From Alphaproteobacteria bacterium (GTDB lineage: Bacteria; Pseudomonadota; Alphaproteobacteria; Sphingomonadales; Sphingomonadaceae): a DNA stretch of 49,829 nucleotides. The notes beneath the pieces were generated by a model. The model did not search any database. It was not told the DNA's origin and saw nothing but the letters and a program-made list of their open reading frames with translations. Of this stretch, positions 8,153 to 25,860 are shown piece after piece. Within the stretch, counting starts at the first letter, position 1. Each line of letters starts with the position of its first letter. Position numbers and translations under genes: made by a program. The stretch is from assembly GCA_030431435.1 (NCBI GenBank), contig JAUIJI010000006.1:1-49829 (forward strand), written 5' to 3'.

Positions 8153-9357
8153 GTGAGCATGAGTTGATAATTCGCATCGCGGCCAAGGGCGATGGCGTCA
8201 CCGCGTCTGGCCATCATGTTGCCGGGGCGGCACCGGGCGATACGGTCGACTCCAGCGGGATCGTGAAGCGCGGTCCGCACTATGTGCAGCCGCCTTGCAG
8301 GCATTTCGAACGCTGTGGCGGCTGCGAGTTGCAGCATTGCGACGATGCCTCGCTGGCAGAATTTGTGAGCAACCGCGTGCTGTTCGCCGCACAATCGCAC
8401 GGGCTTGACCCGCAGGTGGTGAAGCCTGCGCATCTCTCGCCACCAATGAGCCGCCGCCGCGCTACGCTGCACGCAGTAAACGGCGGTGGTGGCAAGGCGA
8501 TGATCGGCTTTCGCGAGGCCGGATCGCACCGTGTTGTCGGCCTCAGCGAGTGCCACATTCTCGCACCAGATCTTTTTGCACTGGTCGGTCCGCTTGGAGC
8601 ATGGCTGTCGAAGCGCAAGGGCAAATACGCCGCCGATATCGACCTTGCGCTTGTTGACCAGGGCGTGGACTGCGCGATCCGTAACATCACGGTCGAAGGT
8701 CTCGACCAGATCGAGGACCTGCTCGATTTCTGCCGCGACAATGGCGTGGCGCGCCTCGGGCTGGATCAGGGCTTCGGCCCGGAGACCTTCTGGGAGCCTG
8801 AGCCTGTCACCGTCACGCTGGGCGGCATGCCCGTCGCCTATCCCGCAGGTTCCTTCCTGCAAGCCACGGCGGACGGCGAAGCGGCATTGGTGAATGCCGT
8901 GACCGAATGGCTCGATGGATGCTCGCAGGTGGCAGACCTGTTCTCAGGTCTCGGCACCTTCGCCTTCGCGCTGGGCCGCAAGAGCCAGGTCACTGCCTAT
9001 GAAGCCGCGCGCGATGCCGTGCTCGCCTGCAAATCTGCCAATCGCGGTCCTGCCAAATCGGTAGAGACCGAGCATCGCGACCTATTCCGCAATCCTCTGC
9101 GGCCTGATGAGCTGGCGCGCTTTGATGGCGTCGTCCTCGATCCGCCGCGTGCAGGCGCTCGCTCACAAGTCGAGCAACTGGCACAATCTTCGGTGCCGCG
9201 CATTGCCTATGTCAGCTGCAATCCTTCCAGCTGGGCGCGTGACGGGGCCTTGTTGAAGGAGGCGGGATACGATCTGGTGGAAGTGCGCCCGGTGGGCCAG
9301 TTCCGCTGGTCAACCCATGTCGAGCTGGCGAGCCTGTTCGTGAAGGGCGGCGAGTAA
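8149..9357 (+). CDS. 23S rRNA (uracil-C5) methyltransferase, RumA/RlmD-like
   Basis: A 402-residue SAM-dependent RNA m5U methyltransferase. Four cysteines spaced as C-x5-C-x2-C-x4-C (CRHFERCGGCELQHC, about residues 50-64) match the [4Fe-4S] site of RlmD/RlmC enzymes. The C-terminal methyltransferase domain has DLFSGLGTFAFAL (SAM binding), LDPPRAGA, and YVSCNPSSWARD with the catalytic Cys. The N-terminal TRAM-like region is short, as in alphaproteobacterial members. The start is GTG at 8149 in a GTGA overlap with the upstream stop. Its last 48 bp overlap the 3' end of the convergent hydrolase gene. Which uridine is modified cannot be read from the sequence. Confidence 0.92.
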   Translation: MSEHELIIRIAAKGDGVTASGHHVAGAAPGDTVDSSGIVKRGPHYVQPPCRHFERCGGCELQHCDDASLAEFVSNRVLFAAQSHGLDPQVVKPAHLSPPMSRRRATLHAVNGGGGKAMIGFREAGSHRVVGLSECHILAPDLFALVGPLGAWLSKRKGKYAADIDLALVDQGVDCAIRNITVEGLDQIEDLLDFCRDNGVARLGLDQGFGPETFWEPEPVTVTLGGMPVAYPAGSFLQATADGEAALVNAVTEWLDGCSQVADLFSGLGTFAFALGRKSQVTAYEAARDAVLACKSANRGPAKSVETEHRDLFRNPLRPDELARFDGVVLDPPRAGARSQVEQLAQSSVPRIAYVSCNPSSWARDGALLKEAGYDLVEVRPVGQFRWSTHVELASLFVKGGE

Positions 9358-10104
9358 CTCGTTGTAAAGCCAGTCCCTTGCATGGTCCTCGGCAAAGGAA
9401 TGACCGGCGTTTTCGCAGATATGCCAGCGATCCTCGGTCTCGGGAATGGCTGACATGAAAGCCTGACCCGTCCGGTCATTCTCGGCGATGAGGAAGCGCA
9501 CATCCCCTGCATAGGTGGCGAGGCCAGCGCGCATCTGCTCTGCCAACGATGACGGCGGTGCGGGGGGCGAAAGGGCTCGCCTGATCCCTCCAGCCAGCTT
9601 GGAAAGCGACACACCGCCGGTCAGCAGGCGGACGAGCTCGCGCGGGTTTTTCAGCTTTTCCACATAGCGCCGACGCACCGCGTCTGGCGGGGGAGCTTCG
9701 TCAACAGCGTCAAATGTCCACGGATTGGCAAGGACCAGTGCGCTGCAGCCCGATCCGCCGTTGAGCAACAGCGCGCTGGCAGCGTCACAATTGCCAAAGC
9801 CGACGACGGCGATGCCGGGGATGTCCTCCTCAAATGCAAGCAGAGCCTTGGCCACGTCCGCTTCGCTCGCTTCAAACCCGCCATTTTCGCCGCCACTGTC
9901 GCCCACGCCGCGGCGGTCGAAGCGCAGGACGGGGAAGCCAGCAGCGGCAATGCGCGCGGCCAGTTGTGACTGCCCGGAAAAGGCACCCGCGCGTGTCTCG
10001 TTCCCTCCTGACACGATCAGCAGGCCGACCTTGCCGGGGGCTTCGTCGAGCGTGCAGGCGATCGCATCTCCCTCGCAATCGACCAGGAAGTGGCGGCGGC
10101 TCAT
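9310..10104 (-). CDS. Exosortase A system-associated alpha/beta hydrolase 1
   Basis: A 264-residue alpha/beta hydrolase of the type found only near exosortase A loci. The oxyanion region IVSGGNETRAGAFSGQSQLA (about residues 31-50), FDRRGVGDSGG and the nucleophile elbow VGFGNCDAASALLL are visible. In the elbow the usual GxSxG reads G-N-C-D-A, so Cys may replace Ser, as in dienelactone hydrolases. The late HSFAEDHARDWL supplies the His. Substrate is unknown. It starts at ATG 10104 in an ATGA overlap with hydrolase 2, and its 3' end overlaps the convergent rRNA methyltransferase gene by 48 bp. It is the last gene of a four-gene minus-strand unit. Confidence 0.88.
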   Translation of the reverse strand: MSRRHFLVDCEGDAIACTLDEAPGKVGLLIVSGGNETRAGAFSGQSQLAARIAAAGFPVLRFDRRGVGDSGGENGGFEASEADVAKALLAFEEDIPGIAVVGFGNCDAASALLLNGGSGCSALVLANPWTFDAVDEAPPPDAVRRRYVEKLKNPRELVRLLTGGVSLSKLAGGIRRALSPPAPPSSLAEQMRAGLATYAGDVRFLIAENDRTGQAFMSAIPETEDRWHICENAGHSFAEDHARDWLYNELLAALHEQARQLDMG

Positions 10105-10766
10105 TCAACTAGCCCTCGAGCGACGAGTGCGGCGAGCGCGGCGGCCTGCGCCTCGTCATGTTCTGGCTCGGCGCGCAGCCACAGGGCGGGGCCGCCAAGC
10201 TCTGCCTGCCTGATTTCTGTGAGTGCGGATTCGCTCGGCAATTCTGCTCCTGAAAGCTGCTCGATCATTCTCGGGCCCAGCTCATAACCCGCCAGTTCCA
10301 GCCCTTCAGCCTTGCCGAGTTCCAGCAGATCCGTGCTTTTCTCTTCACGCCCGGCTTCCTTGGCTGAGATCGTTCGCGCGCGAAGCAAGGCGCGCAAGGC
10401 AGACTTGCCGGCCAGCGGAGCATAGGCAAAGCCGGGAAGTGCGGGCGCGATATTGGCTCCGGCGCGGATGGCGAGGATATGGGTGCAGCCCAGCTTTCCT
10501 GCCGCGCTTGCTGCCGCTCCGCGCCAGCTATCGAGGTCCTGTTCCTGCATCAGCGCGAGGCTTTCATTGCATCCCGGCAGGTCGGGCAAGACGCTCGCAA
10601 TCCCGCGCTTCTCCAGCAACCGCATCGTCTGGATGGTGAAGTGCCTCAGCTTGTTGCTCTCGTCGAACCAGGCAGGGAGCACCAGCAGGCGCGGGGCCTT
10701 GTTCGGGCCGAAACGGATCGCCAGTTCCTCGCTGCCACCGGGCGCTTGCCAGGATTGCAGCTGCAA
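10101..10766 (-). CDS. Exosortase A system-associated hydrolase 2
   Basis: A 221-residue protein with an alpha/beta-hydrolase-like layout. LLVLPAWFDESNKLRHFT (about residues 31-48) is typical of the exosortase-associated hydrolase 2 family, and PDLPGCNESLALMQEQDLDSW follows. The position of the nucleophile reads ILAIRAGANIAPAL, with no Ser, Cys or Asp in the elbow, so catalysis in the ordinary way is doubtful. It may be a partner of hydrolase 1 or a binding protein. It is ATGA-coupled to hydrolase 1 and lies 11 bp after the acyl carrier protein gene. I accept the ATG at 10766, which gives the family's usual start. Confidence 0.82.
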   Translation of the reverse strand: MQLQSWQAPGGSEELAIRFGPNKAPRLLVLPAWFDESNKLRHFTIQTMRLLEKRGIASVLPDLPGCNESLALMQEQDLDSWRGAAASAAGKLGCTHILAIRAGANIAPALPGFAYAPLAGKSALRALLRARTISAKEAGREEKSTDLLELGKAEGLELAGYELGPRMIEQLSGAELPSESALTEIRQAELGGPALWLRAEPEHDEAQAAALAALVARGLVE

Positions 10767-10777
10767 GGCGGACCCTC

Positions 10778-11071
10778 TCAGCCTTCTTCGCGCTTGGCGG
10801 TGACAAAGGCGAGTAGGCCGCCGAAGGTTTCGAGCATTTCGCCGTCTACCTCGTCATCCTCGATCAGGATATCGAGGCGGTCTTCCACTTCGGTCAGCAG
10901 CCCTGCTACGGCCATGGAATCGAGCTCAGGCAGATGGCCGAACAGCCCGGTGTCCTCGGTGAATTCGGCAACCTCCTCGGCATCAAGGCCGAGCACGTCC
11001 TGCAGCACCTGGCGCAGGATCAGCTCCACCTCGATATCATCGTCGCGAACGGCAGGCAGGTTATCGCTCAT
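10778..11071 (-). CDS. Acyl carrier protein, exosortase-associated
   Basis: A 97-residue acidic four-helix carrier protein. The phosphopantetheine site is Ser at about residue 52 in PELDSMAVAGLL, matching the DSM/DSL motif. Flanking helices fit the fold (VELILRQVLQDVLGL; LLTEVEDRLDILIEDDEV). It sits between the GNAT-like transferase and hydrolase 2 on the minus strand, within a module that also has an acyl-CoA ligase, so it probably carries the activated acyl or aminoacyl group for polymer or protein decoration. It is distinct from the fatty-acid ACP because no fab genes are nearby and its helix I is extended. Spacing is 9 bp to the upstream gene and 11 bp to the downstream gene. Confidence 0.9.
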   Translation of the reverse strand: MSDNLPAVRDDDIEVELILRQVLQDVLGLDAEEVAEFTEDTGLFGHLPELDSMAVAGLLTEVEDRLDILIEDDEVDGEMLETFGGLLAFVTAKREEG

Positions 11072-11080
11072 GCAGCGCCT

Positions 11081-12064
11081 CTAGCCAGCACTTTGCCGGG
11101 AAACAAGCTTGCGCAACGCCGCCTTGGCGATAATCGGCCAGTTGGCAGGCGATCCGGGGCGCAGGCAGGTGAGCGAGAAGCGCGGCCGGGTGGCTTCCAT
11201 CCAGTCTGCCTTGTAGCCATCGTTGCCGGTACCGAAATCGACTTCGGAGACGCCGTCTCTGTCGATCACTTCCTCGAACAGCGCGGCTGTCAGAGTGGTG
11301 CCCGGTGAGAGCTTCTGTGCGCTTTCGAGATGCGCCAGCTTGTGGATGTAGGCCGTTCCGCCTTCAACGGTCCAGAATTGCGCCGCGACGGGTTCCCCCT
11401 CGGCCAGCGCCATGCCGAACAGGTAATGACCCTTGGCGCTTTCGCTTTCGGCAAAGGCGCGCAGCAGGGCGGGATCGCCTTCCTCGGGCTTCCAGCTTTC
11501 GGCGTAGATCGCCTCATAGGCGGCCCAGTCAGCGGGATCGAAGGTGCGTTTGAGGATCACTTCCACCTTCTTCGCCTTGCGTTTCAGCGTGGTGCGCAAT
11601 TTTCCGGGGCGCGACGCGATGTATTCAGCGTAGCTGCGGCCATTGACGGGCAGGTAGTGGTTGGTGTCGCACTCCTCGCGGATCACCGTCCATCCGGCAG
11701 TGCGGAAACCGGCTTCGAGCTTCGATGTGAGCGGGTTTTCGGGAGCGAGCTTGGCGAAGTTTACGCGGCTACGCTTCTCAGCCAGATTCTTCGCCAACTT
11801 ACAGAACAGTTCGGGGCGAGGCTCGCCTTTCACCAATGGCGACCAGGTGAAGGCATACCAGTTGGTAAAGACTTCCAGCCCGTCCGGACCCGTCGTCAGC
11901 GGCAGGCAGACGGATGCGTTCTCGCCACTCGCCACGGCGAGCAATGGCCGGTGTCCAGCCTCTTCCAGCAAGGCAAACCAGCCCGGCTGCGCGAAGGGGC
12001 CCTTGCCCGAAAGGCCAAGGGGATGCAGATGTTTAACGGTATCGTGATAGCTGATCGCTTCCAC
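11081..12064 (-). CDS. GNAT family N-acyltransferase (CelD/BioF2-like)
   Basis: A 327-residue protein of the FemAB/CelD-type double GNAT fold. Recognisable parts are LRTTLKRKAKKVEV (about residues 153-166), then YAESWKPEEGDP, VAAQFWTVEGGTAYIHKLAHLESAQKLSPGTTL (about 230-262) and VDFGTGNDGYKADWM. The last resembles acetyltransferase-like proteins of polysaccharide loci. It probably transfers an acyl group from the neighbouring carrier protein or CoA to an amine; the substrate is unknown. The start is GTG at 12064, only 23 bp from the divergent ligase start. It is the first gene of the minus-strand unit with the carrier protein and both hydrolases. Confidence 0.8.
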   Translation of the reverse strand: MEAISYHDTVKHLHPLGLSGKGPFAQPGWFALLEEAGHRPLLAVASGENASVCLPLTTGPDGLEVFTNWYAFTWSPLVKGEPRPELFCKLAKNLAEKRSRVNFAKLAPENPLTSKLEAGFRTAGWTVIREECDTNHYLPVNGRSYAEYIASRPGKLRTTLKRKAKKVEVILKRTFDPADWAAYEAIYAESWKPEEGDPALLRAFAESESAKGHYLFGMALAEGEPVAAQFWTVEGGTAYIHKLAHLESAQKLSPGTTLTAALFEEVIDRDGVSEVDFGTGNDGYKADWMEATRPRFSLTCLRPGSPANWPIIAKAALRKLVSRQSAG

Positions 12065-12087
12065 AGTAATTCGCCCCGGAGCCTTTC

Positions 12088-13602
12088 TTGCCTGTACCGC
12101 TCGATCCCGTTGCTAAACCGCTCGACCATCTTGCCCTGATCGGACGCGATGAGGATATGGCATTGGTCCTGCGCGGGCAAAGCCTTAGCTGGAAGGACTT
12201 AAGAAGCCGTGTGAGCCTGCTTGCGTCGTGGCTGGCGGAGTTGGTGCCGACCAAGGGCGCGCGGGTGGCGACATGGGCGGCAAAGGGTGAACTCACGTGC
12301 TTAATGCCGCTCGCCGCAGCACGGGCAGGGCTGGTGCATGTGCCCATCAATCCGCTGCTCAAACATGCGCAAGTAAAGCACATTCTGGCAGACAGCGGCA
12401 CAAGCGCCCTGATCGGCACCGAAGCGCGCCTGAAAAGCCTTGAGGAGGGCGATGCGCCCGCTGATTGCATGGTGATTGGCGAAAAAGCGGCGTGGGAGCA
12501 GGCAGAGGCGCTCGGCGCCAATCTTGGGCCATCCGATAGTGATCCGGAAAGCCTGTGCGCGATCCTCTACACCAGCGGGTCCACAGGCAAGCCCAAGGGT
12601 GTGATGCTGAGCCATGCGAACCTGTGGCTCGGCGCGGTGAGCGTGGCGCATTACCTCGGCATGGAAAGCGACGATGTGACGCTGGCGGTCTTGCCCCTCA
12701 GCTTCGACTACGGGCAGAACCAGCTGCTTTCGACCTGGTATGCCGGTGGCTGCGTGGTGCCGCTGGATTATCTGACCCCGCGCGATGTGCTGAAGGCTTG
12801 CGCCAACCACGGTATTACGACCCTCGCAGCCGTGCCTCCGCTGTGGGTGCAACTGGTTGAGCAGGACTGGCCGCAAGAGGCGGTGACGCCAATGCGCCGC
12901 CTGACGAACAGTGGCGGCGCGCTCACCACAGAGCTGGTGAGAGATTTGCGGCGTATCTTCCCGCAATCACGTCTTTTTCCCATGTACGGCCTTACCGAGG
13001 CCTTCCGTTCAACCTATCTCCATCCCAAGTGGGTGGACGAGCATCCGACCTCGATGGGCATGGCCATTCCCTTCGCTGAAATCCTTGTGATTGCCGATGA
13101 TGGCGAACTGGCCGGGGCCTTGGAGGAGGGCGAGCTTGTTCACTGCGGACCTTTGGTGGCGCAAGGGTACTGGCAGGATGCGGAGCGCACCGCCGAACGC
13201 TTCAAGCCCGCCCCGTCGATGTCCGAATATGGTGGAACCGCCGTGTGGTCAGGAGACCGCGTGTTTCGCGATGTTGAGGGCCTGCTCTATTTTGTCGGCA
13301 GGCGCGATGCGATGATAAAGAGCGCGGGCAACCGCATCAGCCCGCAGGAAGTGGAGGACGCCGCCGTGGCCACCGGATTTGCCGAAGAAGCCGTCGCCAT
13401 CGGCGTGCCTGACGACAGGCTGGGCCAGGCGATCCACCTCGTCGTGCGGGGGTCGGGCGATGAGGAGGCCTTGCGCAAGGCGCTGCGCAAGGACCTGCCC
13501 AATTTCATGCAGCCTGCCGAAATCCGCTGGCTCGATGCCATGCCGCTCAACCCCAATGGCAAGATCGATCGCAGCCTGCTGGCACGTGAGGCGCGGGCAT
13601 GA
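12088..13602 (+). CDS. Acyl-CoA ligase (AMP-forming), exosortase A system-associated
   Basis: A 504-residue adenylate-forming enzyme that activates a carboxylic acid with ATP and transfers it to CoA or a carrier protein. The AMP-binding loop YTSGSTGKPKG lies at about residues 161-171, MYGLTEAF near 297, SGDRVFRDVEGLLYFVGRRD near 392-411, and the C-terminal catalytic Lys is in NPNGKIDRS near 490. The start is TTG at 12088 with GGAG six bases before it; an ATG 69 bp downstream is possible but would remove the first strand. It is divergent from the GNAT gene and ATGA-coupled to the decarboxylase. The specific acid is not known. Confidence 0.92.
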   Translation: MPVPLDPVAKPLDHLALIGRDEDMALVLRGQSLSWKDLRSRVSLLASWLAELVPTKGARVATWAAKGELTCLMPLAAARAGLVHVPINPLLKHAQVKHILADSGTSALIGTEARLKSLEEGDAPADCMVIGEKAAWEQAEALGANLGPSDSDPESLCAILYTSGSTGKPKGVMLSHANLWLGAVSVAHYLGMESDDVTLAVLPLSFDYGQNQLLSTWYAGGCVVPLDYLTPRDVLKACANHGITTLAAVPPLWVQLVEQDWPQEAVTPMRRLTNSGGALTTELVRDLRRIFPQSRLFPMYGLTEAFRSTYLHPKWVDEHPTSMGMAIPFAEILVIADDGELAGALEEGELVHCGPLVAQGYWQDAERTAERFKPAPSMSEYGGTAVWSGDRVFRDVEGLLYFVGRRDAMIKSAGNRISPQEVEDAAVATGFAEEAVAIGVPDDRLGQAIHLVVRGSGDEEALRKALRKDLPNFMQPAEIRWLDAMPLNPNGKIDRSLLAREARA

Positions 13603-14825
13603 AGGCGCTTGGTCCGATCCCCGCCGGATTCGCCGCTCTCGATGGCGAACTGGCCATCGGTGGCCGCAAGGTGAGTGTGCTGGTGAAGGAAGCGGGCGAC
13701 ACGCCGCTGTTCGTCTATTCCCGTGACATGATCGATGCCCGCTTGGCGGCGCTTCGTGGAGCGATGCCGGAACGGCTCAACATCCACTATGCGATGAAGG
13801 CGAACCCGTTTGCGTCTTTGCTGGAACATATGGCCGAACTGGTGGACGGTCTCGACATCGCATCCGGTGGAGAGCTCAGGCAAGCCCGCGATGCCGGCTT
13901 CCTGCCGCGCGAGATCAGTTTCGCAGGCCCCGGCAAACGCGATGCGGAAATTTTCGCCGCCGTAAAGGCAGGGGTCACGCTCAACCTCGAATCCGCCAAT
14001 GAAGCGCAGCGTGCGCTTGAAGCGGGCACCGCGCTTGGCATCGCGCCCCGCCTTGCGATCCGGGTGAATCCCGACTTCGAACTGCGCGGTTCGGGGATGA
14101 AGATGGGTGGCGGGGCCAAACCTTTCGGGATCGATAAGGCACAGGTTCCTGAACTGGCGAAGAAAATCATCGCAGCTGGTGCCCAATGGCGCGGGCTGCA
14201 TATCTACACCGGCAGTCAGGCGCTGGATGCCGATGCGGTGATCGAGACCCAGGCCAATGTTCTGGACCTTGCCGCGCAATTGTCTGAGGAAATCGGCACG
14301 CCATTGCCGCATCTCAACATGGGTGGTGGCTTCGGCATTCCATATTTCGACAAGGACACGCCGCTGGATATTGCAAAGGTCGGAGCAGCGTTGAAAGAGC
14401 GATTCGCTGCCTTGCCGTCGATCCTGCAAGAGACTGATTTTGCAATTGAACTGGGCCGCTATCTGGTGGGCGAGGCGGGGGTTTACCTGACCCGCATCGT
14501 GGACCGGAAGGTGAGCCACGGCGTGACCTACCTCGTCACCGATGGCGGATTGCATCACCAGCTGGCTGCGTCCGGCAATTTCGGCACCGTCGTGCGCCGC
14601 AACTATCCCGCTGCGATCGCTACCCGGTTCGGGGCCGAGCCGGAGGAAGAGGTCAATATCGTCGGCTGCCTGTGCACTCCGCTCGACAGGCTTGCGGATC
14701 AGGCGATGATGCCTCGTGCCGAAGTGGGCGATATTGTCGCCATTTTCTGCGCCGGAGCCTATGGCGCAAGCGCCAGCCCGGCCTCTTTCCTTGGCCAGGG
14801 TCCGGCAAAGGAAATGCTGGTTTAA
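13599..14825 (+). CDS. PLP-dependent decarboxylase, exosortase A system-associated
   Basis: A 408-residue fold-type III enzyme of the ornithine/diaminopimelate/arginine decarboxylase group. The PLP Lys is about residue 67 in HYAMKANP. Further motifs are DIASGGEL, GLHIYTGSQ near 200, NMGGGFGIPY near 240, the ELGRYLVGEAGVY phosphate/active-site stretch, CLCTPLDRL with the across-interface Cys, and GAYGASAS near the end. It probably decarboxylates an amino acid to give an amine for the module; which one cannot be read. The start ATG overlaps the ligase stop (ATGA), so both are made together. The stop is followed by the leader region of the exopolysaccharide operon. Confidence 0.92.
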   Translation: MKALGPIPAGFAALDGELAIGGRKVSVLVKEAGDTPLFVYSRDMIDARLAALRGAMPERLNIHYAMKANPFASLLEHMAELVDGLDIASGGELRQARDAGFLPREISFAGPGKRDAEIFAAVKAGVTLNLESANEAQRALEAGTALGIAPRLAIRVNPDFELRGSGMKMGGGAKPFGIDKAQVPELAKKIIAAGAQWRGLHIYTGSQALDADAVIETQANVLDLAAQLSEEIGTPLPHLNMGGGFGIPYFDKDTPLDIAKVGAALKERFAALPSILQETDFAIELGRYLVGEAGVYLTRIVDRKVSHGVTYLVTDGGLHHQLAASGNFGTVVRRNYPAAIATRFGAEPEEEVNIVGCLCTPLDRLADQAMMPRAEVGDIVAIFCAGAYGASASPASFLGQGPAKEMLV

Positions 14826-15015
14826 CGCCGGCGCTGCGCCGCGTCCCCATTTGGGACAGGCCTTCAAAAACCCGGCTGAAACCGCCCGTTTGGCCGAAAG
14901 GCTAACGCAATGTTCACCCTTTTTCGCGAGAAGCATCAACGGATCCGCAGGTAGCGGGATCGTGTCGGCAGCGTCCGGGGCGTCTCCCATGCCTGAAACC
15001 CTTGAGGACGCGAAG
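14826..15015 (+). promoter_or_regulatory. Leader region of the exopolysaccharide operon
   Basis: These 190 bp separate the decarboxylase from the export gene and are the largest gap in the locus, so a promoter for the operon is likely here. A small GC-rich hairpin (ggcgctgcgcc) lies just after the decarboxylase stop. I see no convincing sigma-70 pair, and the nearest sigma-54-like sequence (ttgggacaggccttca) lacks the invariant GC at -12. Confidence 0.4.
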
Positions 15016-15660
15016 ATGCGAACGAACACACTTACCCGCCTTCTGGCAGCCGGAGCCACGGCTTCGCTGGCGCTAACCGGTTGCAACAGCACCGCCAATG
15101 CACCGCAGCTGGCCCCGGCAACCTTTGTTGCCATGCAGGAAGGTCCGGGCGAGGAATATGTCATTGGCCCGCTTGATGAATTGACCATCCACGTCTGGCG
15201 CAATGACGAGCTGGGCGCGCAGGTGCAGGTCCGTCCGGACGGGCGCATCACCACGCCGCTGGTGCCGGACATGCCCGCCGTGGGCAAGACGCCGACGATG
15301 CTGGCAGAGGACGTTCGCCTGCAGCTTTCGCAGTATATCTCCGATCCGCTGGTGACGGTGATCGTCAACAAGTTTGCCGGCACGTTCAGCCAGCAGGTTC
15401 GCGTTGTCGGCGCGACTGACCAGCCTGCATCGCTGCCTTACCGCGCCAATATGACGCTGCTCGACGCGATGATTTCGGTCGGCGGCCTTTCCGAATTCGC
15501 ATCGGGTAACAAGGCCAAGCTGATCCGCTTCGACCGGACGACCGGCCGTCAGGAAGAGTACGCGCTGCGCCTGGGAGACCTCCTCCGCAAGGGCGAGAGC
15601 GAGGCGAACGTGATGCTCATGCCGGGTGATGTGATCATCATCCCGGAAAGCATGTTCTGA
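15016..15660 (+). CDS. XrtA-system polysaccharide export lipoprotein (Wza-like)
   Basis: A 214-residue periplasmic/outer-membrane lipoprotein of the polysaccharide export family. The lipobox ALTGC places the acylated Cys at about residue 23. The export domain begins EEYVIGPLDELTIHVWRNDELGAQVQVRPDGRI (about 46-78) and is followed by one SLBB-like domain (VRVVGATDQPASLPYRANMTLLDAMISVGGLSEFA). It ends MLMPGDVIIIPESMF, the usual finish. I chose the ATG at 15016 because GAGGA lies seven bases upstream and a signal peptide follows directly; earlier in-frame ATGs lack these. It is the first gene of the operon and probably forms the outer-membrane end of the export channel. Confidence 0.92.
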   Translation: MRTNTLTRLLAAGATASLALTGCNSTANAPQLAPATFVAMQEGPGEEYVIGPLDELTIHVWRNDELGAQVQVRPDGRITTPLVPDMPAVGKTPTMLAEDVRLQLSQYISDPLVTVIVNKFAGTFSQQVRVVGATDQPASLPYRANMTLLDAMISVGGLSEFASGNKAKLIRFDRTTGRQEEYALRLGDLLRKGESEANVMLMPGDVIIIPESMF

Positions 15661-15685
15661 GGCTGACGAGGCAGGGAACACGAAC

Positions 15686-17203
15686 TTGAACCAGCTTCTC
15701 GAAGAACTGCGCGCAGCGATCTGGTCGGTCTGGAACCGCCGCTGGATTGCGCTTGCCACAGCCTGGGGCATCTGCCTGCTGGGCTGGCTGGCCGTGGCGC
15801 TGATCCCCAATTCCTACGAATCGCAGTCGCGCATTTTCGTGCAGCTGGACGATGTCCTGGCTGAGCAGATCGGCATGGGCTCGGGCAGCCGCCAGCGCGA
15901 CCTTGATCGTGTGCGGCAGACGCTGGTGTCTGCAGTGAACCTTGAGAAGGTGGTGCGATCCACCCGGCTTGGTGACCAGATCACGGATGCCAGCCAGATG
16001 GAGACCGCCACGAGCCGCCTTGCGGACGATATCAAGGTTGTGTCCGAAGGAGAGAACCTGTTCGAGATCACCGCAGTCAGCGGTCGCAGCGATCTTTCCG
16101 ACGCCGAGAACGCCCAGCTTGCGCAGGTGATCGTGCAGCGCATGATCGACATCTTCCGTGAAGAGAACATGGGCGGTGCGCGCGGCGACATGCGCGAGAC
16201 GCTCGACTTCATCAACGCCCAGCTTGAGGCGCGCCAGCGGGAACTGGAAGCGGCTGAACAGCGCCGTCTCGAGTTCGAGGCACAGTATCCGGAACTGATC
16301 GGTGGCACCGCCGCGCTACAACAGGAACTGAACGGCACGCGTTCCGAACTGCGCAGCGTGGAAGCAGACCTTGCTGCTGCCGAAAGCGCACTCGCTGCGA
16401 TCGACGGCCAGATGGCCAGCACGCCGCGCACCCTGCTTACGCCGGGCTCGGGTGGCCCTGCCGCCGCTCTGGCACAGGCCGAAGCGACGCTCGCACAATA
16501 TCGTTCGCAAGGCCTGACAGACCAGCACCCTGATGTTGTCGCCCTGAACCGCCAGATTGCGACCTTGCGCGAACGCGCGGCTGCCGATGGCGGCGTTAGC
16601 GGCACTCCGAACCCTGCTTATACCTCGCTCGTTTCTATCCGTTCGCAACGCCTTGCCAATGTCCAGGCCCTGCAATCGCGCGCTGCCGCCTTGCGAGCGG
16701 AGATTTCCGCCATCATGGACAGCCAGTCACGTGAACCGGGCGTGGCGGCCGAAGCCCAGCGCATTTCCCGTGATTACGACGTGCTGCGCCAGCAGTATGA
16801 AGAACTGTTGCAGGACCGCGAAGAACTGCGCCTGCGTGGTCAGGTCGAGAATGAGCGTAGTGCGGTGCAGTTCGAAGTGGTCGATCCGCCTTCGACGCCG
16901 CGCACTCCTGCGGCTCCCAATCGCCCCCTGCTGCTGGTCGCGGTGCTGATTGTCGGCCTCGGCGGTGGTGCCGGTTTCGCCTTTGCACTCGGGAAGCTGG
17001 GTTCGACATTCGCCACCGCAAGCCAACTGGAACGGCGCTTCGACTTGCCGGTCATCGGCACGATTTCGCACACGGTGACAGAAGCCGGCAGGGCGCTGCG
17101 CCGCAAGCACCTCAAGTATTTCGCTGCTGCCAGCGCGTCTCTGGGCGTGCTTTTCATCGTGTTGCTGGGCGTGGAATTCGTCCAGCGCGGATTGGTCGCG
17201 TGA
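15686..17203 (+). CDS. XrtA-system chain-length determinant (Wzz/PCP type)
   Basis: A 505-residue inner-membrane polysaccharide co-polymerase that sets chain length and links to the export pore. A first membrane helix at about residues 21-39 (IALATAWGICLLGWLAVAL) is followed by the Wzz domain, then long coiled coil at about 160-260 (Gln/Glu/Ala-rich heptads). A second helix (LLLVAVLIVGLGGGAGFAFAL) lies near 413-433 and a third (ASLGVLFIVLLGVEF) near 484-498. The start is TTG at 15686 with a gcaggga Shine-Dalgarno. No kinase domain is fused; the separate tyrosine kinase follows 10 bp later. The third C-terminal helix after a cytoplasmic linker is typical of the XrtA version. Confidence 0.92.
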   Translation: MNQLLEELRAAIWSVWNRRWIALATAWGICLLGWLAVALIPNSYESQSRIFVQLDDVLAEQIGMGSGSRQRDLDRVRQTLVSAVNLEKVVRSTRLGDQITDASQMETATSRLADDIKVVSEGENLFEITAVSGRSDLSDAENAQLAQVIVQRMIDIFREENMGGARGDMRETLDFINAQLEARQRELEAAEQRRLEFEAQYPELIGGTAALQQELNGTRSELRSVEADLAAAESALAAIDGQMASTPRTLLTPGSGGPAAALAQAEATLAQYRSQGLTDQHPDVVALNRQIATLRERAAADGGVSGTPNPAYTSLVSIRSQRLANVQALQSRAAALRAEISAIMDSQSREPGVAAEAQRISRDYDVLRQQYEELLQDREELRLRGQVENERSAVQFEVVDPPSTPRTPAAPNRPLLLVAVLIVGLGGGAGFAFALGKLGSTFATASQLERRFDLPVIGTISHTVTEAGRALRRKHLKYFAAASASLGVLFIVLLGVEFVQRGLVA

Positions 17204-17213
17204 GGGGGATGGC

Positions 17214-18242
17214 ATGACTGAACACAGCAAGATTCCCGTCCCCGGAAAGGACGCCAAGAAGGGCAAGTCGCTGTTCGAGCGCGCCGAAGGCATGTTTGGC
17301 GGCGAGGGTTATGCACCGGCTCCAGTGCCCAAGGATCTGGCCAAACCGGTCAATCGCAAGGTGGCAAAGCCCAAGGTTCCTGCTGCGGCACAGCCTGCGG
17401 CAGAACAGCCTGCGCCTGCACCCGCGCCTGCTGCATCTGTCACACCGCAGGCGGCTGCTGCACCCGCTCCGGTGGAACAGCCAGCGGCGCCCGTGGCCAA
17501 GCCGCGCATCGGCTTCTCCGGTGATCGCCACCCGGTTGATCGCGAATTGCTGGCGCATCATGGACTGATCATGCCCGATGGGCCGGTCACCGGCCTGCTC
17601 GAGGAGTTCCGCATCGTTAAGCGCCAGCTGCTCAAGGCGGCGCGCGCCGATGCGAGCGGTATGGCCAGCCGTATCCTTGTCTGCTCGCCGCTGCCGGACG
17701 AGGGCAAGACCTTCTGCGCTACCAACCTCGCCCTTGCCATGGCGAGCGAGCGGGACTGCGAAGTGGTGCTGGTTGATGCCGATGTGGCCAAGCCCTCGGT
17801 GCTCTCCACTCTTGGGCTGCCCAAGGGGCCGGGCCTGATGGACGCGCTCGCCAATCCCGAGATCGCGGTGGAAGACTGCGTGATCGCCACCGATATTTCC
17901 GGCCTGTTCGTGCTTCCAGCCGGAAACCAGACCAGTGCTGACAGCGAATATCTCGCCAGCGCCCGCACAAGCGAGGTGCTCGCTCGCCTGACGCAAGGCG
18001 CGCCCGAACGTGTGCTGGTGTTCGACAGCCCGCCTGCACTCGCAGCTTCGCCTGCTGCGGACCTTGCCAATCACGTCGGTCAGGCGCTCGTCGTCGCCCG
18101 GGCGGACAAGACCGGACAGAGTGCGCTGGAAGATGCGCTGTCGCTGCTTTCGAACTGCCCTGACATCAAACTGCTGCTCAATGATGCCCACTTCAGCCCC
18201 AGCGGACGCCGCTTCGGGGCCTACTATGGATATGGAGGCTAG
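17214..18242 (+). CDS. XrtA-associated tyrosine autokinase (BY-kinase)
   Basis: A 342-residue cytoplasmic bacterial tyrosine kinase of the CpsD/CapB type. A variable N-terminal part contains a Pro/Ala-rich linker (about residues 55-97). The kinase domain has Walker A SPLPDEGKTF (about 158-167), Walker A' VVLVDADVAKPS (about 184-195) and Walker B VLVFDSPPA. The C-terminus ends FGAYYGYGG, a small tyrosine cluster for autophosphorylation. It should act with the preceding chain-length protein to cycle polymerisation. ATG at 17214 follows gagggggATG-like spacing; the preceding gene stops 10 bp upstream. It ends 4 bp before the next start, with the downstream GGAGG lying inside its last codons. Confidence 0.92.
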   Translation: MTEHSKIPVPGKDAKKGKSLFERAEGMFGGEGYAPAPVPKDLAKPVNRKVAKPKVPAAAQPAAEQPAPAPAPAASVTPQAAAAPAPVEQPAAPVAKPRIGFSGDRHPVDRELLAHHGLIMPDGPVTGLLEEFRIVKRQLLKAARADASGMASRILVCSPLPDEGKTFCATNLALAMASERDCEVVLVDADVAKPSVLSTLGLPKGPGLMDALANPEIAVEDCVIATDISGLFVLPAGNQTSADSEYLASARTSEVLARLTQGAPERVLVFDSPPALAASPAADLANHVGQALVVARADKTGQSALEDALSLLSNCPDIKLLLNDAHFSPSGRRFGAYYGYGG

Positions 18243-18246
18243 GGAG

Positions 18247-19908
18247 ATGCCATCTTCTCTTCGCCAATCTCAACTGATCGCAACCGCGGCAGCCATCGTG
18301 CTGGCCCTGCCGTTTCCTGCCCTTGCGCAGGTTGATGGCGGCTATGACGATGTGGAAAGCGAGGGCGTGCGCGGTCGTACGGTCGCAGTGCAGCCCTATA
18401 TCGAGGCGGCGCAGGTCCTCACCGCAGAACTCTCACCGGGCGACGATGTGGTCACCTATACCCGTGTTGCAGCGGGTGTGGACGCCACGGTTGCAGGCCG
18501 GAACAGCGCCGGTTCGGTGTCGGTCCGCTACGAGCGCCGCATCGGCTATGGCAGCGTGTCCGATGGAGACACCATCAGCGGCATCGCCCGCGGTGCGCTC
18601 GCCATCGTGCCGCGTCGCCTGAATTTCGAGGCTGGCGCGCTGGCATCGCGTGCTCGCGTTGAAGGTGGTGGTGCCACCACCATCGGCGGCAACAGCGTGG
18701 ACGATAGCTCCACCAGCCAGATCTACTCCGCCTATGCCGGGCCTTCGTTGCAGACCAACGTGGGCGATCTGGCTGTCACCGGTGCTTACCGGATCGGCTA
18801 CACGCGGGTTGAGGCACCTGACGCGATCACGCTGGCACCGGGCGACGAGCCGGTCGACATCTTTGACGACAGCCTGACGCAGCAAGCCAATGTCCGCGCG
18901 GGCTTCGCCCCCGGCACCGCGCTGCCCATCGGCATTGGCGTTGGCGGTGGCTGGAACCGGCAAGATGTGTCCAATCTGGATCAACGCATCGATGATCGCT
19001 ACGTGCGCGCCGATGTCACCGTGCCGGTATCTCGCACGCTCGCCCTGATCGGTGGCGTGGGTTACGAGGATGTCGAGGTTTCCGGCCGCGACGCGGTACG
19101 CGATGTGAACGATGATCCGGTCATCGGCGCAGATGGCCGCTTCGTCACTGACAAGAGCGCCCCGCGCCAGATCGCCTATCAGACAGACGGCCTGATCTGG
19201 GATGCCGGCGTGATGTGGCGTCCAAGCCGCCGCACCGCGCTGCAAGCCACCGTGGGCCGCCGCTACGGTTCGAGGAGCTATACCGGATCGTTCTCCTACG
19301 CACCCAACCAGCGCACCAGCGTGAATGTGGGTGTTTATGACAACCTCACCGGATTTGGCGGCACGCTGATCGACAACCTGGCAGACTTGCCGACCGAATT
19401 CTCGGCCTTCCGCAACCTGCTGACGGGCGATCTGGGCGGCTGCGTGGATTCACTCGAAAGCGGCAATTGCGCTCTCGGCAACCTTGGCTCGCTGCGCAGC
19501 TCGGTATTCCGCAGCCGCGGCGTGGTGGGCAATGTCTCGCGCAGCGATGGTCGTACGTCCTACGGCATCGCCGGTGGCTATGACCGCCGCAGCTTCCTTG
19601 GCGCTCAAGGCACCGCACTGGCGGACGTCGATGGTGTGCTCAACGAGAACTACTGGCTGGCACTCTACGCGGCTCGCCAGCTTGATGAACGCTCCAACCT
19701 CTCTGCCAATGCCTATGCCAACTGGTTCGAAAGTGGATTCGATGGCGATGGCAACGGCATGGGTTACAGCGCATCGCTTTCCTACAACCGCCAGATCATT
19801 CGCGGGCTGAGCGGCACCGCTGCGGTGGGTCTCGACGGCGTCACACGCGATGAACTGCCTGACTACACCAACGCATCGGCCCTGCTTGGCCTGCGCTATT
19901 CCTTCTGA
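18247..19908 (+). CDS. XrtA-system outer-membrane beta-barrel protein
   Basis: A 553-residue exported protein. A signal peptide at about residues 1-28 ends in FPALAQ. The rest is a series of amphipathic strands, consistent with a large outer-membrane barrel, and it ends ALLGLRYSF, with the terminal Phe expected for BAM-dependent insertion. Two cysteines (GGCVDSLESGNCAL) could form a disulfide in a surface loop. It matches the uncharacterised outer-membrane family placed at this position in exosortase A loci. I chose ATG 18247 because GGAGG sits eight bases upstream; an ATG 15 bp earlier is possible. It may be the outer-membrane pore or a surface anchor for the polymer. Confidence 0.85.
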   Translation: MPSSLRQSQLIATAAAIVLALPFPALAQVDGGYDDVESEGVRGRTVAVQPYIEAAQVLTAELSPGDDVVTYTRVAAGVDATVAGRNSAGSVSVRYERRIGYGSVSDGDTISGIARGALAIVPRRLNFEAGALASRARVEGGGATTIGGNSVDDSSTSQIYSAYAGPSLQTNVGDLAVTGAYRIGYTRVEAPDAITLAPGDEPVDIFDDSLTQQANVRAGFAPGTALPIGIGVGGGWNRQDVSNLDQRIDDRYVRADVTVPVSRTLALIGGVGYEDVEVSGRDAVRDVNDDPVIGADGRFVTDKSAPRQIAYQTDGLIWDAGVMWRPSRRTALQATVGRRYGSRSYTGSFSYAPNQRTSVNVGVYDNLTGFGGTLIDNLADLPTEFSAFRNLLTGDLGGCVDSLESGNCALGNLGSLRSSVFRSRGVVGNVSRSDGRTSYGIAGGYDRRSFLGAQGTALADVDGVLNENYWLALYAARQLDERSNLSANAYANWFESGFDGDGNGMGYSASLSYNRQIIRGLSGTAAVGLDGVTRDELPDYTNASALLGLRYSF

Positions 19909-19932
19909 CGGGTCACAGAGGAGACCAGACCC

Positions 19933-21102
19933 ATGTATGACGACTACTACGGTTTTACCGGCAAACCCTTCCAGCTGACGCCTGATCCGGAATTCTATTT
20001 CCGCTCGATCACGCATCGCAAGGCGCTGTCCTATCTCGGATACGGGCTTGCGCAGGGCGAGGGCTTCATCGTCATCACGGGCGAAGTTGGCGCGGGTAAG
20101 TCCACGCTGGTTGCGCACATGATGGCCAGCATCGATCCTGCCCAGGTAACCGTGGCGCAGGTGGTCACCAGCAAGCTTGACGAAGACGAGATCATCCACG
20201 TCGTCGCGCGCAGCTTTGGCCTCGATGTTGCCGGGCATGACAAGGCGAGTGCGCTGGGCGCAATCGAAAGCCTGCTGCATGAAGAGGCCCGCAATGGCCG
20301 CCGCTGCCTGCTGGTCGTAGACGAATCGCAGAACCTTTCGGTCGAGGCCCTCGAAGAACTGCGCATGCTCTCCAACTTCCAGCTCGGCAGCCATCCTCTG
20401 CTGCAAACGCTGCTCCTCGGCCAGCCGGAATTCCGCACGATGCTGCAGAACCACAGCGGTCTGGAACAGCTTCGCCAGCGGGTGATCGCGGCGCACCATC
20501 TGGAAGCGATGGAAGCGACCGAAGTCGAACCCTATGTGCTGCATCGCCTGCAGAAGGTCGGCTGGGAAGGCAATCCTGCCTTCGATGCTGAAGTCTTCGC
20601 TGAACTGCATGCAGCAAGCGGCGGTATTCCGCGCCGCGTAAACCAGATCGCCAACCGCCTGCTTCTGCTGGGTGCGGTTGAGGACAGCGAGACGATCGAT
20701 CTCGAGATGCTGCAGCTGGTACTTGCAGAAATGGAAGGCGAAAAGGCCTCTAGCCTTTCTTCCGCTCCCGAGCCGCAGAAGGCTGGCGCTCCGGTTGAAG
20801 ACACAGCGCAGCAGGAAGTGGTTGCAGAACCGGCTCAGCCCGCGCTTGATCCGCAGCTTGTCGAAGACCTGCTGGCAGAGCGCGACGCGCAGATCCAGGA
20901 GTTGCAGCAGGCAGTGGTCGAACTGTCCAATGTTCAGGACGATGTGATCGTCCAGGCAGTGCAGCCGCAACTGCAGGCCATGCAGGAACAGATCGCCCGC
21001 CTCGAAGCCAAGACCTTCGAGCAGGAGCGCACCATCCGCCAGACGCTGACGATGCTGATCGAATGGATCGAAAGCGAAATGGACGAAGAGAAAGCCGCTT
21101 AA
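19933..21102 (+). CDS. XrtA-system ATPase (ExeA-like AAA+)
   Basis: A 389-residue AAA+ ATPase similar to the ExeA/general secretion ATPases. It opens MYDDYYGFTGKPFQLTPDP, the family's N-terminal signature. Walker A GEVGAGKST lies at about residues 50-58 and Walker B LLVVDESQN near 129-137; LRMLSNFQ and RRVNQIANRLLLL are the sensor regions. From about residue 275 an acidic linker is followed by a coiled coil (about 315-385) rich in Gln and Glu. It may energise assembly of the export machine; the exact job is unknown. It starts 24 bp after the barrel gene and precedes the deacetylase by 15 bp. Confidence 0.9.
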   Translation: MYDDYYGFTGKPFQLTPDPEFYFRSITHRKALSYLGYGLAQGEGFIVITGEVGAGKSTLVAHMMASIDPAQVTVAQVVTSKLDEDEIIHVVARSFGLDVAGHDKASALGAIESLLHEEARNGRRCLLVVDESQNLSVEALEELRMLSNFQLGSHPLLQTLLLGQPEFRTMLQNHSGLEQLRQRVIAAHHLEAMEATEVEPYVLHRLQKVGWEGNPAFDAEVFAELHAASGGIPRRVNQIANRLLLLGAVEDSETIDLEMLQLVLAEMEGEKASSLSSAPEPQKAGAPVEDTAQQEVVAEPAQPALDPQLVEDLLAERDAQIQELQQAVVELSNVQDDVIVQAVQPQLQAMQEQIARLEAKTFEQERTIRQTLTMLIEWIESEMDEEKAA

Positions 21103-21117
21103 GGGAGCAATCGGGCT

Positions 21118-22020
21118 GTGAACGCGGTCAACTCGCAACCAGAGGTGCCGGCCGGTAATCGTATCGTCAACGGACTGTCCGTTGACGTCGAAGACTGGTT
21201 CCAGGTCGGCGCTTTCGAGGACGTGATCGAGCGCGACGCATGGGCGACGCTCGACGATCGCGTTGACCGCAACGTGCGCGAAATCCTTGACCTGTTTGAC
21301 GAGGCGAATGCCACGGCGACCTTCTTCACTCTGGGCTGGGTGGCCAAGCGCCACGGCCCTCTGTTGCGCGAGATCGTGGCGAGGGGGCACGAGATGGCCA
21401 GCCATGGCTGGGACCATGCCCGCGTCCACACGCTGACCCGCCAGCAATTCGGCGAAGACATCGCGAGGGCGCGCAAGCAGATAGAGGATGCCAGCGGTGT
21501 TCGCGTCACCGGCTACCGGGCGCCAAGCTTCTCGATCGATCAGCGCACGCCATGGGCCTATATGGAACTGGCGGAACAGGGCTATGCATATTCCTCCAGC
21601 GTCTCGCCCGTCACTCACGATCATTATGGCTGGGCAGCCGCGCCGCGTTTTGCCTTCAAGCCGCTGCCGTGGGCCGGTCTGGTGGAAATCCCGGTCACCA
21701 CTGCGATGTTTGCTGGCAAGCGCCTCGCTGCTGGCGGTGGCGGGTTCTTCCGCGTGCTGCCCTATGCGTTCTCTCGCTGGGCGATCCGGCAGGTCAACCG
21801 GCAGGACCAGCGCCCTGCGGTTTTCTATTTCCATCCTTGGGAGATTGATCCCGGGCAGCCGCGCGTGGCCGGTGCGCCGCTCAAGTCACGCCTGAGGCAT
21901 TATACCAATCTGGAAAAGATGGCGCCCAAGCTGCGCCAGCTGATCCATGATTTCGAATGGGGCCGCATGGATGTGCTGGCTCACCGCGAGAAGGCACAGC
22001 TTGACGCGGTGGCAGCATGA
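21118..22020 (+). CDS. XrtA-system polysaccharide deacetylase
   Basis: A 300-residue carbohydrate esterase family 4 (NodB-like) enzyme, predicted to remove N-acetyl groups from the polymer or its precursor. Family motifs are LSVDVEDWFQ with the catalytic base Asp pair (about residues 20-29), TATFFTLGWVAKRH, GHEMASHGWDH with the metal His residues (about 90-100), GYRAPSFSID and the late FYFHPWEIDP. No signal peptide is seen, so it is probably cytoplasmic. The start is GTG at 21118 with AGGGAG upstream. Its stop overlaps the FemAB start (ATGA). Free amines exposed by it would be natural acceptors for the neighbouring transferases; that link is inference. Confidence 0.92.
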   Translation: MNAVNSQPEVPAGNRIVNGLSVDVEDWFQVGAFEDVIERDAWATLDDRVDRNVREILDLFDEANATATFFTLGWVAKRHGPLLREIVARGHEMASHGWDHARVHTLTRQQFGEDIARARKQIEDASGVRVTGYRAPSFSIDQRTPWAYMELAEQGYAYSSSVSPVTHDHYGWAAAPRFAFKPLPWAGLVEIPVTTAMFAGKRLAAGGGGFFRVLPYAFSRWAIRQVNRQDQRPAVFYFHPWEIDPGQPRVAGAPLKSRLRHYTNLEKMAPKLRQLIHDFEWGRMDVLAHREKAQLDAVAA

Positions 22021-25850: not shown

Positions 25851-25860
25851 CGCATCACCC

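Follow-up and report, generated by a model that had tools for sequence, protein, structure and literature searches.

This analysis concerns a stretch of 49,829 nt (the window) from an alphaproteobacterium of the Sphingomonadaceae, in the order Sphingomonadales (assembly GCA_030431435.1, contig JAUIJI010000006.1), and in particular three of its genes, which code for an adenosine monophosphate (AMP)-binding ligase, a carrier protein and a pyridoxal 5'-phosphate (PLP)-dependent decarboxylase. These three genes, here called the trio, rather probably constitute a carrier-bound beta-alanine pathway that operates in place of PanD. PanD, a pyruvoyl enzyme, makes beta-alanine in many bacteria, and PanC needs beta-alanine to form pantothenate. 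In the pathway that we propose, the ligase would adenylate the side-chain (beta) carboxylate of L-aspartate and load the aspartyl group on the holo-carrier, and the decarboxylase would then remove the alpha-carboxylate on the carrier to give beta-alanyl-S-carrier. In Sphingomonadales that lack PanD, the trio would supply the beta-alanine used at the PanC step for pantothenate and coenzyme A (CoA); in exosortase A clusters, a tandem-GNAT transferase, perhaps with a Cys hydrolase, would move the beta-alanyl group to an amine or hydroxyl, the acceptor lying most plausibly in the exopolysaccharide pathway. The carrier's phosphopantetheine arm itself contains beta-alanine, so that the pathway would need its own end product to run. 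On balance we favour a wider picture in which, across much of an order, the PanD step takes place on a carrier protein, with CoA synthesis depending on its own product, and in which a FemX-like transferase in exosortase A clusters draws on beta-alanyl-carrier, the carrier standing in for tRNA. This proposal is based on comparisons of protein families, of residues in the pocket and active sites and of gene linkage, on the mutual exclusion with PanD and on an in-place gene swap; from them we infer aspartate as the substrate, each of the reactions, the release of free beta-alanine and the acceptor. The choice of aspartate is based on the pocket residues, the precedent of bolagladin synthesis and the swap with panD.

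The in-place swap is the strongest evidence for the function of the trio. It was found in a genus (g232) of which ten sampled species carry the decarboxylase, none of them with exosortase A, while two genomes, G503 and G526, have PanD instead. Seven of the ten decarboxylase genomes were fetched and the trio is present in all seven. The gene order in G504, G460 and G457 is truA - decarboxylase - ligase - carrier - trxB - pyrG, and in G503 it is truA - panD - trxB - pyrG, so that panD occupies the place of the trio; a tblastn search of the G503 region with the trio proteins gave no match at E values up to 1. G526 retains trxB - pyrG, has lost the trio next to trxB and carries panD about 5 kb off; the sequence retrieved for this genome does not reach the truA side. 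Comparison of trxB in six genomes and of pyrG in five puts G503 closest to the trio-bearing G504 (95.7% in trxB and 92.6% in pyrG) and G526 closest to the trio-bearing G460 (86.1 and 82.4%, respectively); the two panD genomes are 79% alike, with PanD proteins 74% identical. Since each is nearest to a trio-bearing relative, either the swap occurred twice or panD passed between lineages.

The distribution of these genes across the order points in the same direction. In a sample of 162 Sphingomonadales genomes, each at least 90% complete and scored with the decarboxylase as the sole proxy for the trio, the decarboxylase was found in 113 (112 over the family cut-off), PanD in 19, PanC in 149 (148 over cut-off) and exosortase A over cut-off in 110. 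Decarboxylase and PanD never occur together (0/113; Fisher test 7e-12, descent ignored), and PanC is present in 111 of the 113 decarboxylase genomes. Exosortase A over cut-off is absent from 25 of those 113, and conversely 22 of the 110 exosortase A genomes are without the decarboxylase, 14 of these having PanD. Counted by genus, the decarboxylase occurs in 44 of 58 and PanD in five, both being present only in g232, in different species. Eleven genomes of another genus, g265 (G416, G421, G423 and eight more), are without PanC, PanD and decarboxylase alike and are predicted from their gene content to be pantothenate auxotrophs. The sphingomonad Zymomonas mobilis is reported to require pantothenate because it lacks aspartate decarboxylase (Gliessman 2017, as cited in PMC10370309). 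Across a phylum sample of 397 genomes, of which 56 were examined for PanD and five had it, none of the 32 genomes with TIGR03099, the decarboxylase family, over cut-off has PanD.

An independent view of the same gap comes from a published survey of 204 alphaproteobacteria, which was prompted by the lack of PanD in Rhizobium etli (PMC7142369). By our count, its Table A2 holds 22 Sphingomonadales (19 listed as such and three Erythrobacter placed under Rhodospirillales), of which 21 have PanC, none PanD, two beta-alanine synthase and two GAD, and 17 have PanC without PanD, beta-alanine synthase or GAD (PMC7142369). One of them, Erythrobacter sp. SD-21, is given with PanC and without PanD, beta-alanine synthase, GAD or a listed transaminase (PMC7142369); its genome carries the trio alone (L157). 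GAD is listed there for E. litoralis HTCC2594 and Erythrobacter sp. NAP1 (PMC7142369).

The initial annotation had treated six genes as a single module linked to exosortase A, namely the trio, the transferase and two hydrolases, and only the trio proves to travel together. We fetched 80 named loci with the decarboxylase as query, 62 of them longer than 15 kb, and the trio is complete in 62/62. The transferase is present in 50 (missing from 12), both hydrolases in 51 (missing from 11) and an XrtA export gene in 51; eight loci have the trio alone, four have hydrolases without transferase and three have transferase without hydrolases. In the last three (L205, L211 and L220) the contigs end about 2 kb past the carrier, and hydrolases could lie further off. 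A transferase match of 18 bits in L212 is spurious and is left out of these counts. No gene is shared by the flanks of all the trio-only loci. Around decarboxylase matches in other genomes (L062-L093), the trio lies within 19 kb in 30 of 32 regions, more often than chance would bring about. In G102 (L069) a ligase match lies some 1.9 Mb away from the decarboxylase, and the 19 kb retrieved from G264 (L081) show no carrier. Ligase, carrier and decarboxylase were also found in 11 of 14 further regions, from G107 and from 13 genomes that score under the family cut-off; exosortase A is not over cut-off in any of them, and the carrier in these regions often scores just 20 to 40 bits. The unit is thus the ligase, carrier and decarboxylase, the transferase and hydrolases being optional, and we reject an exosortase-specific six-gene unit on the loci that lack transferase or hydrolases. 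The initial annotation named a failure of the six genes to co-occur across exosortase A genomes as grounds for its refutation; this applies to the six-gene unit, whereas the trio withstands the same test.

That these families recur with exosortase A, as the initial annotation stated, is true in the sense of a strong association, which is nevertheless not strict. The phylum sample holds 42 genomes with exosortase A over cut-off, 32 with TIGR03099 and 31 with TIGR03098, the ligase family; exosortase A and TIGR03099 are both present in 29, exosortase A alone in 13, and TIGR03099 without exosortase A in three (G107, G146 and G342) of 355. A strict exosortase A function of the trio is rejected on the 25 decarboxylase-bearing Sphingomonadales genomes without it. 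The 17 trio loci without an exopolysaccharide export gene (16 assemblies, L152 and L072 being one assembly) all have an intact ligase pocket, decarboxylase motif and carrier Ser, and this retention of trio loci without exopolysaccharide genes suggests a housekeeping role. The pattern search used for the ligase pocket missed it wholly or partly in 16 of 122 ligases, in over-long or cut frames; the residue counts given below come from the alignment.

The ligase resembles enzymes that activate amino acids. Searched at whole length, its top match is a linear gramicidin synthase module (261 bits over two stretches), VinN scores 177 bits, and CoA ligases rank below the amino-acid adenylation domains; with the substrate region alone VinN ranks first, narrowly (85 versus 82 bits for the next match). 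Residues D207, Y208, S275, F306 and R307 of the window ligase align with D230, F231, S299, K330 and R331 of VinN. In an alignment of 43 ligases of the family, D230 and R331 are each kept in 43/43, Ser or Thr stands at S299 in 42 and an aromatic residue at F231 in 38, and the beta13-beta14 loop, which bears the Arg, is shortened to the VinN length in all 43, the window ligase aligning with VinN without a gap in this loop. Just one of 12 control AMP-binding proteins has Arg at VinN position 331, and that one (L116) is a misread frame; the other 11 were judged by their motifs. In VinN, Asp230 binds the amino group of 3-methylaspartate (PMC11253843), and Ser299 and Arg331 have been proposed to hold its remaining carboxylate (PMC11253843, PMC7756342). 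We propose from these residues that the ligase is an amino-acid adenylating enzyme of the VinN type, with a predicted activity of L-aspartate (beta-carboxyl):carrier ligase. Five members of the alignment (L062, L063, L064, L066 and L095) combine Ala at position 231 with Thr at 299 and may load a different amino acid.

The decarboxylase has as its best relatives in the PDB the BtrK structures 7ru7 and 2j66 (238 bits), the best diaminopimelate decarboxylase scoring 142 bits. The motifs MGG, [YF]xG[ST]Q and GPLCTPxD are common to TIGR03099 proteins and BtrK, the window version of the last being GCLCTPLD; diaminopimelate decarboxylases of the sampled genomes instead carry STG, HIGSQ and GP[VI]CE[ST]xD. 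This comparison drew on the 15 usable regions of 20 fetched for paralogues, 10 of them with GP[VI]CE[ST]xD; L122-L125 and L128, which include the window genome's own presumed lysA, were left out because their longest frame codes for something else, and among the regions kept, five (L132-L136) do not have the motifs of diaminopimelate decarboxylases. A 71-row tree separates the 12 rows with the CE[ST]xD motif, with support of 100/99, and BtrK falls on the other side, its branch being long and its exact position unsure; the outlier L132 is unplaced. By sequence, the window decarboxylase is of the BtrK type and is predicted to act on a carrier-bound amino acid. Given a VinN-type pocket together with a BtrK-type decarboxylase, the most likely course is that a single amino acid is activated, placed on the carrier and decarboxylated there.

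Other relatives of the decarboxylase were seen in passing. L109-L114, which score about 300 bits to TIGR03099, are a distinct BtrK-like group with HV[YF]AASG replacing [YF]xG[ST]Q, and no ligase or carrier lies near the decarboxylase in these regions (0/6). A further group, L133-L136, from genomes of families f43 and f82, has GPLCTS and HIFQWGN motifs. In genome G400 (L232, 7649-10306), where exosortase A is not over cut-off, a divergent decarboxylase with CSP for CTP sits beside a ligase, a carrier, hydrolases and an export gene.

The transferase is modelled as a tandem GNAT fold (predicted local distance difference test, pLDDT, 90). Searches of PDB sequences with it found no solved relative; in a Foldseek search with the model, the first 20 matches comprise Sba18 and Sbb17 (E values 1e-14 to 2e-13), MprF, FemX and aminoacyl-phosphatidylglycerol synthases, acetyltransferases ranking after the aminoacyl transferases. 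The structure titles of Sba18 and Sbb17 name them as aminoacyl-tRNA-dependent peptide synthases with streptothrisamine. A single open frame spans transferase and carrier in Alteraurantiacibacter aquimixticola (L142 and L068, one assembly, placed in the window's genus) and in Blastomonas marina (L183). Such an arrangement would suit a transferase that is supplied by that carrier, although these frames may reflect an assembly error or the mere loss of a stop codon. Judged on its modelled fold, the PF13480 protein is probably an aminoacyl transferase and an optional partner of the trio. The polysaccharide deacetylase encoded next to exosortase A would expose amines, so that a beta-alanyl amide on the polymer is no more than plausible.

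Of the two hydrolases, the first keeps its Cys in 56 of 58 aligned rows (the others being one gap and one Gly) and its Asp and His in all 55 rows with letters there. Its model (pLDDT 85) places the Cys between strand 99-105 and helix 107-115, and the fold matches many alpha/beta-hydrolases at modest scores, including RhlA and a thioesterase domain. In hydrolase 2 the nucleophile position is taken by Arg in 59/59 rows; the protein lies under the TIGR03101 cut-off and is tied to that family by position and the shared Arg elbow. Hydrolase 1 may thus be an active Cys subunit for acyl transfer or thioester cleavage and hydrolase 2 its non-catalytic partner. Trio-only loci are without hydrolases, so release of beta-alanine there would not depend on them.

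Several explanations other than a beta-alanine pathway in place of PanD have to be weighed. The trio might make beta-alanyl-carrier for exopolysaccharide only, decorating an amino sugar or a lipid-linked intermediate, with the link to PanD coincidental. The company that the trio keeps argues for this, with an XrtA export gene near it in 51 of 62 loci, hydrolases in 51 and the transferase, which folds like aminoacyl transferases, in 50, and with TIGR03099 over cut-off in 29 of 42 exosortase A genomes versus 3/355 others. We nevertheless consider it unlikely, given that 25 of 113 Sphingomonadales keep the decarboxylase without exosortase A, that active sites are intact in all 17 trio loci without an export gene, and that panD replaces the trio in a genus whose ten decarboxylase genomes are all without exosortase A. 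The same carrier chemistry might also serve another substrate, either glutamate, giving a gamma-aminobutyryl-carrier as in butirosin synthesis, or 3-methylaspartate. BtrK, the closest solved decarboxylase, acts on glutamyl-BtrI (PMC7857480), VinN takes 3-methylaspartate specifically and aspartate only at low efficiency (PMC11284099), and five of the ligases have Ala at F231; set against these are the VinN-type pocket, aromatic at F231 in 38/43, the swap with PanD, which points to beta-alanine, and the fact that the window genes that were annotated include neither a glutamate mutase nor a BtrJ-like ligase (no genome-wide search was made). We judge a substrate of this kind to be quite improbable.

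The initial annotation proposed that an acid is activated and loaded on the carrier, that an amino acid is separately decarboxylated to an amine, and that the transferase joins the two. The family names 'acyl-CoA ligase' and 'decarboxylase' invite such a scheme, which is most improbable. Its first step survives to the extent that the ligase plausibly loads the carrier, but the pocket is of the VinN amino-acid type and not that of an acyl-acid ligase; the second is contradicted by a decarboxylase of the BtrK carrier-substrate type; and the transferase, while it may pass the product on, is missing from 12/62 loci. On these grounds the coupling of acid and amine is rejected. It is next to impossible that the decarboxylase arose by duplication from one that acts on diaminopimelate or in polyamine synthesis. 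TIGR01048, the lysA family, does match it at 241 bits, but this score (240.7) is below the cut-off of 297.9 and compares with 595.5 for TIGR03099, a second homologue on contig C8 (202.9 bits to TIGR03099) is presumably the true lysA, and the window protein has CTPLD where CE[ST]GD, the motif that recognises the distal end of diaminopimelate, would be expected. This identity is rejected on the lysA score and the CTPLD motif.

There are also observations that weigh against the beta-alanine pathway itself. On the side of the enzymes, the whole ligase scores higher with what we take to be a glycine-type domain of gramicidin synthase than with VinN, Lys330 of VinN is not kept (Phe in the window ligase and in 39/43, His in three and Tyr in one), Ala stands at F231 in the five ligases named above, and no release enzyme is common to all trio loci, hydrolases not being seen in 11/62. 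On the side of the genomes, 19 of the 162 Sphingomonadales have PanC but neither decarboxylase nor PanD, which implies either another beta-alanine source there or draft gaps; in genome G452, for example, the contig runs on for 6.5 kb beyond the exosortase gene and does not reach the expected place of the trio. Two decarboxylase genomes, drafts 99% and 90% complete, are without PanC, and the window's own assembly is 90.5% complete. The mutual exclusion reflects few independent events (one PanD-bearing family and two lineages of one genus). Outside Sphingomonadales PanD is found in 0/10 genomes with TIGR03099 over cut-off, yet in just 1/11 exosortase A genomes without it; as the other ten are also PanD-less, the absence of PanD there says little. 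PanD is present in two of ten genomes with below-cut-off relatives of the decarboxylase (G010 and G117). Finally, Table A2 gives candidate transaminases, AAM and GabT, for many Sphingomonadales, among them many of the 17 that have PanC without PanD, beta-alanine synthase or GAD (PMC7142369).

The features of the locus are collected in Table 1. The window is contig C105 of our genome G000, which is 2.9 Mb in size, and the named relatives that come closest, judged by the decarboxylase, are two Sphingomonadales, Alteraurantiacibacter (80%) and Aurantiacibacter (79%). The initial annotation was accurate in placing the six genes, since all six frames are open at the coordinates that it gave and the families are matched, and the carrier Ser in DSM, the AMP-binding loop and the PLP Lys that it reported are all present. 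The ATGA couplings that it described within each arm hold for one junction per arm, the others being spaced, by 9 bp from transferase to carrier and by 11 bp from carrier to hydrolase 2. The window genome codes for a single PF01648 phosphopantetheinyl transferase, so that conversion of the carrier to its holo form is possible in principle. Near exosortase A lie genes for polysaccharide export, chain length, a deacetylase, FemAB and an amidotransferase.

Table 1. Coordinates of the trio, its partners and the neighbouring exosortase A region in the window
Feature	Positions	Strand	Family match and remarks
Hydrolase 1	9310-10104	-	TIGR03100, 191 bits (cut-off 168); Cys106, Asp210, His235
Hydrolase 2	10101-10766	-	TIGR03101-like, 39.1 bits (cut-off 202.75), divergent; Arg in nucleophile elbow
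ATGA overlap, hydrolase 2/hydrolase 1	10101-10104	-	Minus-strand arm
Carrier protein	10778-11071	-	PP-binding, 24.8 bits (cut-off 20.8); Ser52 in ELDSM is the phosphopantetheine site
Tandem-GNAT transferase	11081-12064	-	PF13480 Acetyltransf_6, 67.8 bits (cut-off 22)
Ligase	12088-13602	+	TIGR03098, 635.4 bits (cut-off 592.35); AMP loop YTSGSTGKPKG
ATGA overlap, ligase/decarboxylase	13599-13602	+	Plus-strand arm
PLP decarboxylase	13599-14825	+	TIGR03099, 595.5 bits (cut-off 478.45); PLP Lys67 in AMKANP; GCLCTPLD
Exosortase A/exopolysaccharide genes	14899-27756	+	Context, outside the trio
Exosortase A	24294-25850		Downstream of the six genes

Elsewhere in the window, a tRNA-Ala (ggc) called by ARAGORN at 18608-18693 sits inside the frame 18010-19908 and is probably a false positive, and a scan with Rfam found no family at its gathering score anywhere in the window. 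Downstream of prfB, positions 40535-41368 code for a caspase-domain protein (Peptidase_C14), adjoined by a gene at 39516-40538 whose product has no Pfam or NCBIfam match at the thresholds used.

If a carrier-bound route to beta-alanine is confirmed, TIGR03098 and TIGR03099, so far named by their association with exosortase A, would gain a function, and the open beta-alanine step in many Sphingomonadales would be filled, changing the genome-based prediction of pantothenate prototrophy. Carrier-bound decarboxylation would pass from the field of secondary metabolism to that of vitamins, and it would become possible to test what the exosortase-associated transferase does, with beta-alanyl as the group to seek in the polymer. 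A search of the open-access literature (subscription papers being outside its scope) found no assigned product or pantothenate role for the exosortase-associated trio, in agreement with the initial annotation that no product had been assigned; papers on floc formation (PMC9850573) and aminolipids (PMC11631085) do not, in the sections consulted, treat these genes, and one paper, on Geobacter, mentions exosortase, beta-alanine and exopolysaccharide together.

Among known systems, the NCBIfam families TIGR03098-TIGR03101 already cover the locus, the ligase, decarboxylase and hydrolase 1 being members above cut-off, under hypothetical-equivalog names that carry no assigned reaction. With PanD the trio would share its net product, beta-alanine from aspartate; PanD is an unrelated small enzyme that acts on free aspartate. 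Carrier-bound decarboxylation chemistry is to our knowledge known so far only from antibiotic-type pathways. In butirosin synthesis, where BtrK decarboxylates glutamate attached to the carrier BtrI (PMC7857480), the likeness lies in the structure of the decarboxylase and in a substrate held on a carrier. The difference lies in that substrate and in its loading by BtrJ, an ATP-grasp enzyme, rather than by an adenylating ligase of this family. In vicenistatin synthesis, VinO decarboxylates 3-methylaspartate only after VinN has attached it to VinL; VinN is specific for 3-methylaspartate and accepts aspartate with low efficiency (PMC11284099). Beta-carboxylate adenylation, carrier loading and on-carrier PLP decarboxylation, with Asp230, Ser299 and Arg331, are the features held in common with the proposed pathway; the vicenistatin system differs in its substrate, its polyketide starter product and its Lys330, which is Phe in the window ligase. 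The sequence comparison within this system was with VinN. The closest parallel, with a VinN-like ligase, a free-standing carrier and a BtrK-like decarboxylase, is the bolagladin pathway of Burkholderia gladioli, in which BolO, BolC and BolN are proposed to form beta-alanyl-carrier from aspartate; BolO keeps Asp230, Ser299 and Arg331, Lys330 not being among the kept residues named in the section cited, and beta-alanine failed to rescue a strain deleted for bolN (PMC7756342). The bolagladin trio feeds a nonribosomal peptide synthetase, whereas no nonribosomal peptide synthetase or polyketide synthase is found among the annotated window genes, and the trio described here is widespread in an order and mutually exclusive with PanD. 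The chemistry that we propose is thus of a known kind, while its use in vitamin metabolism appears to be new within the searchable literature.

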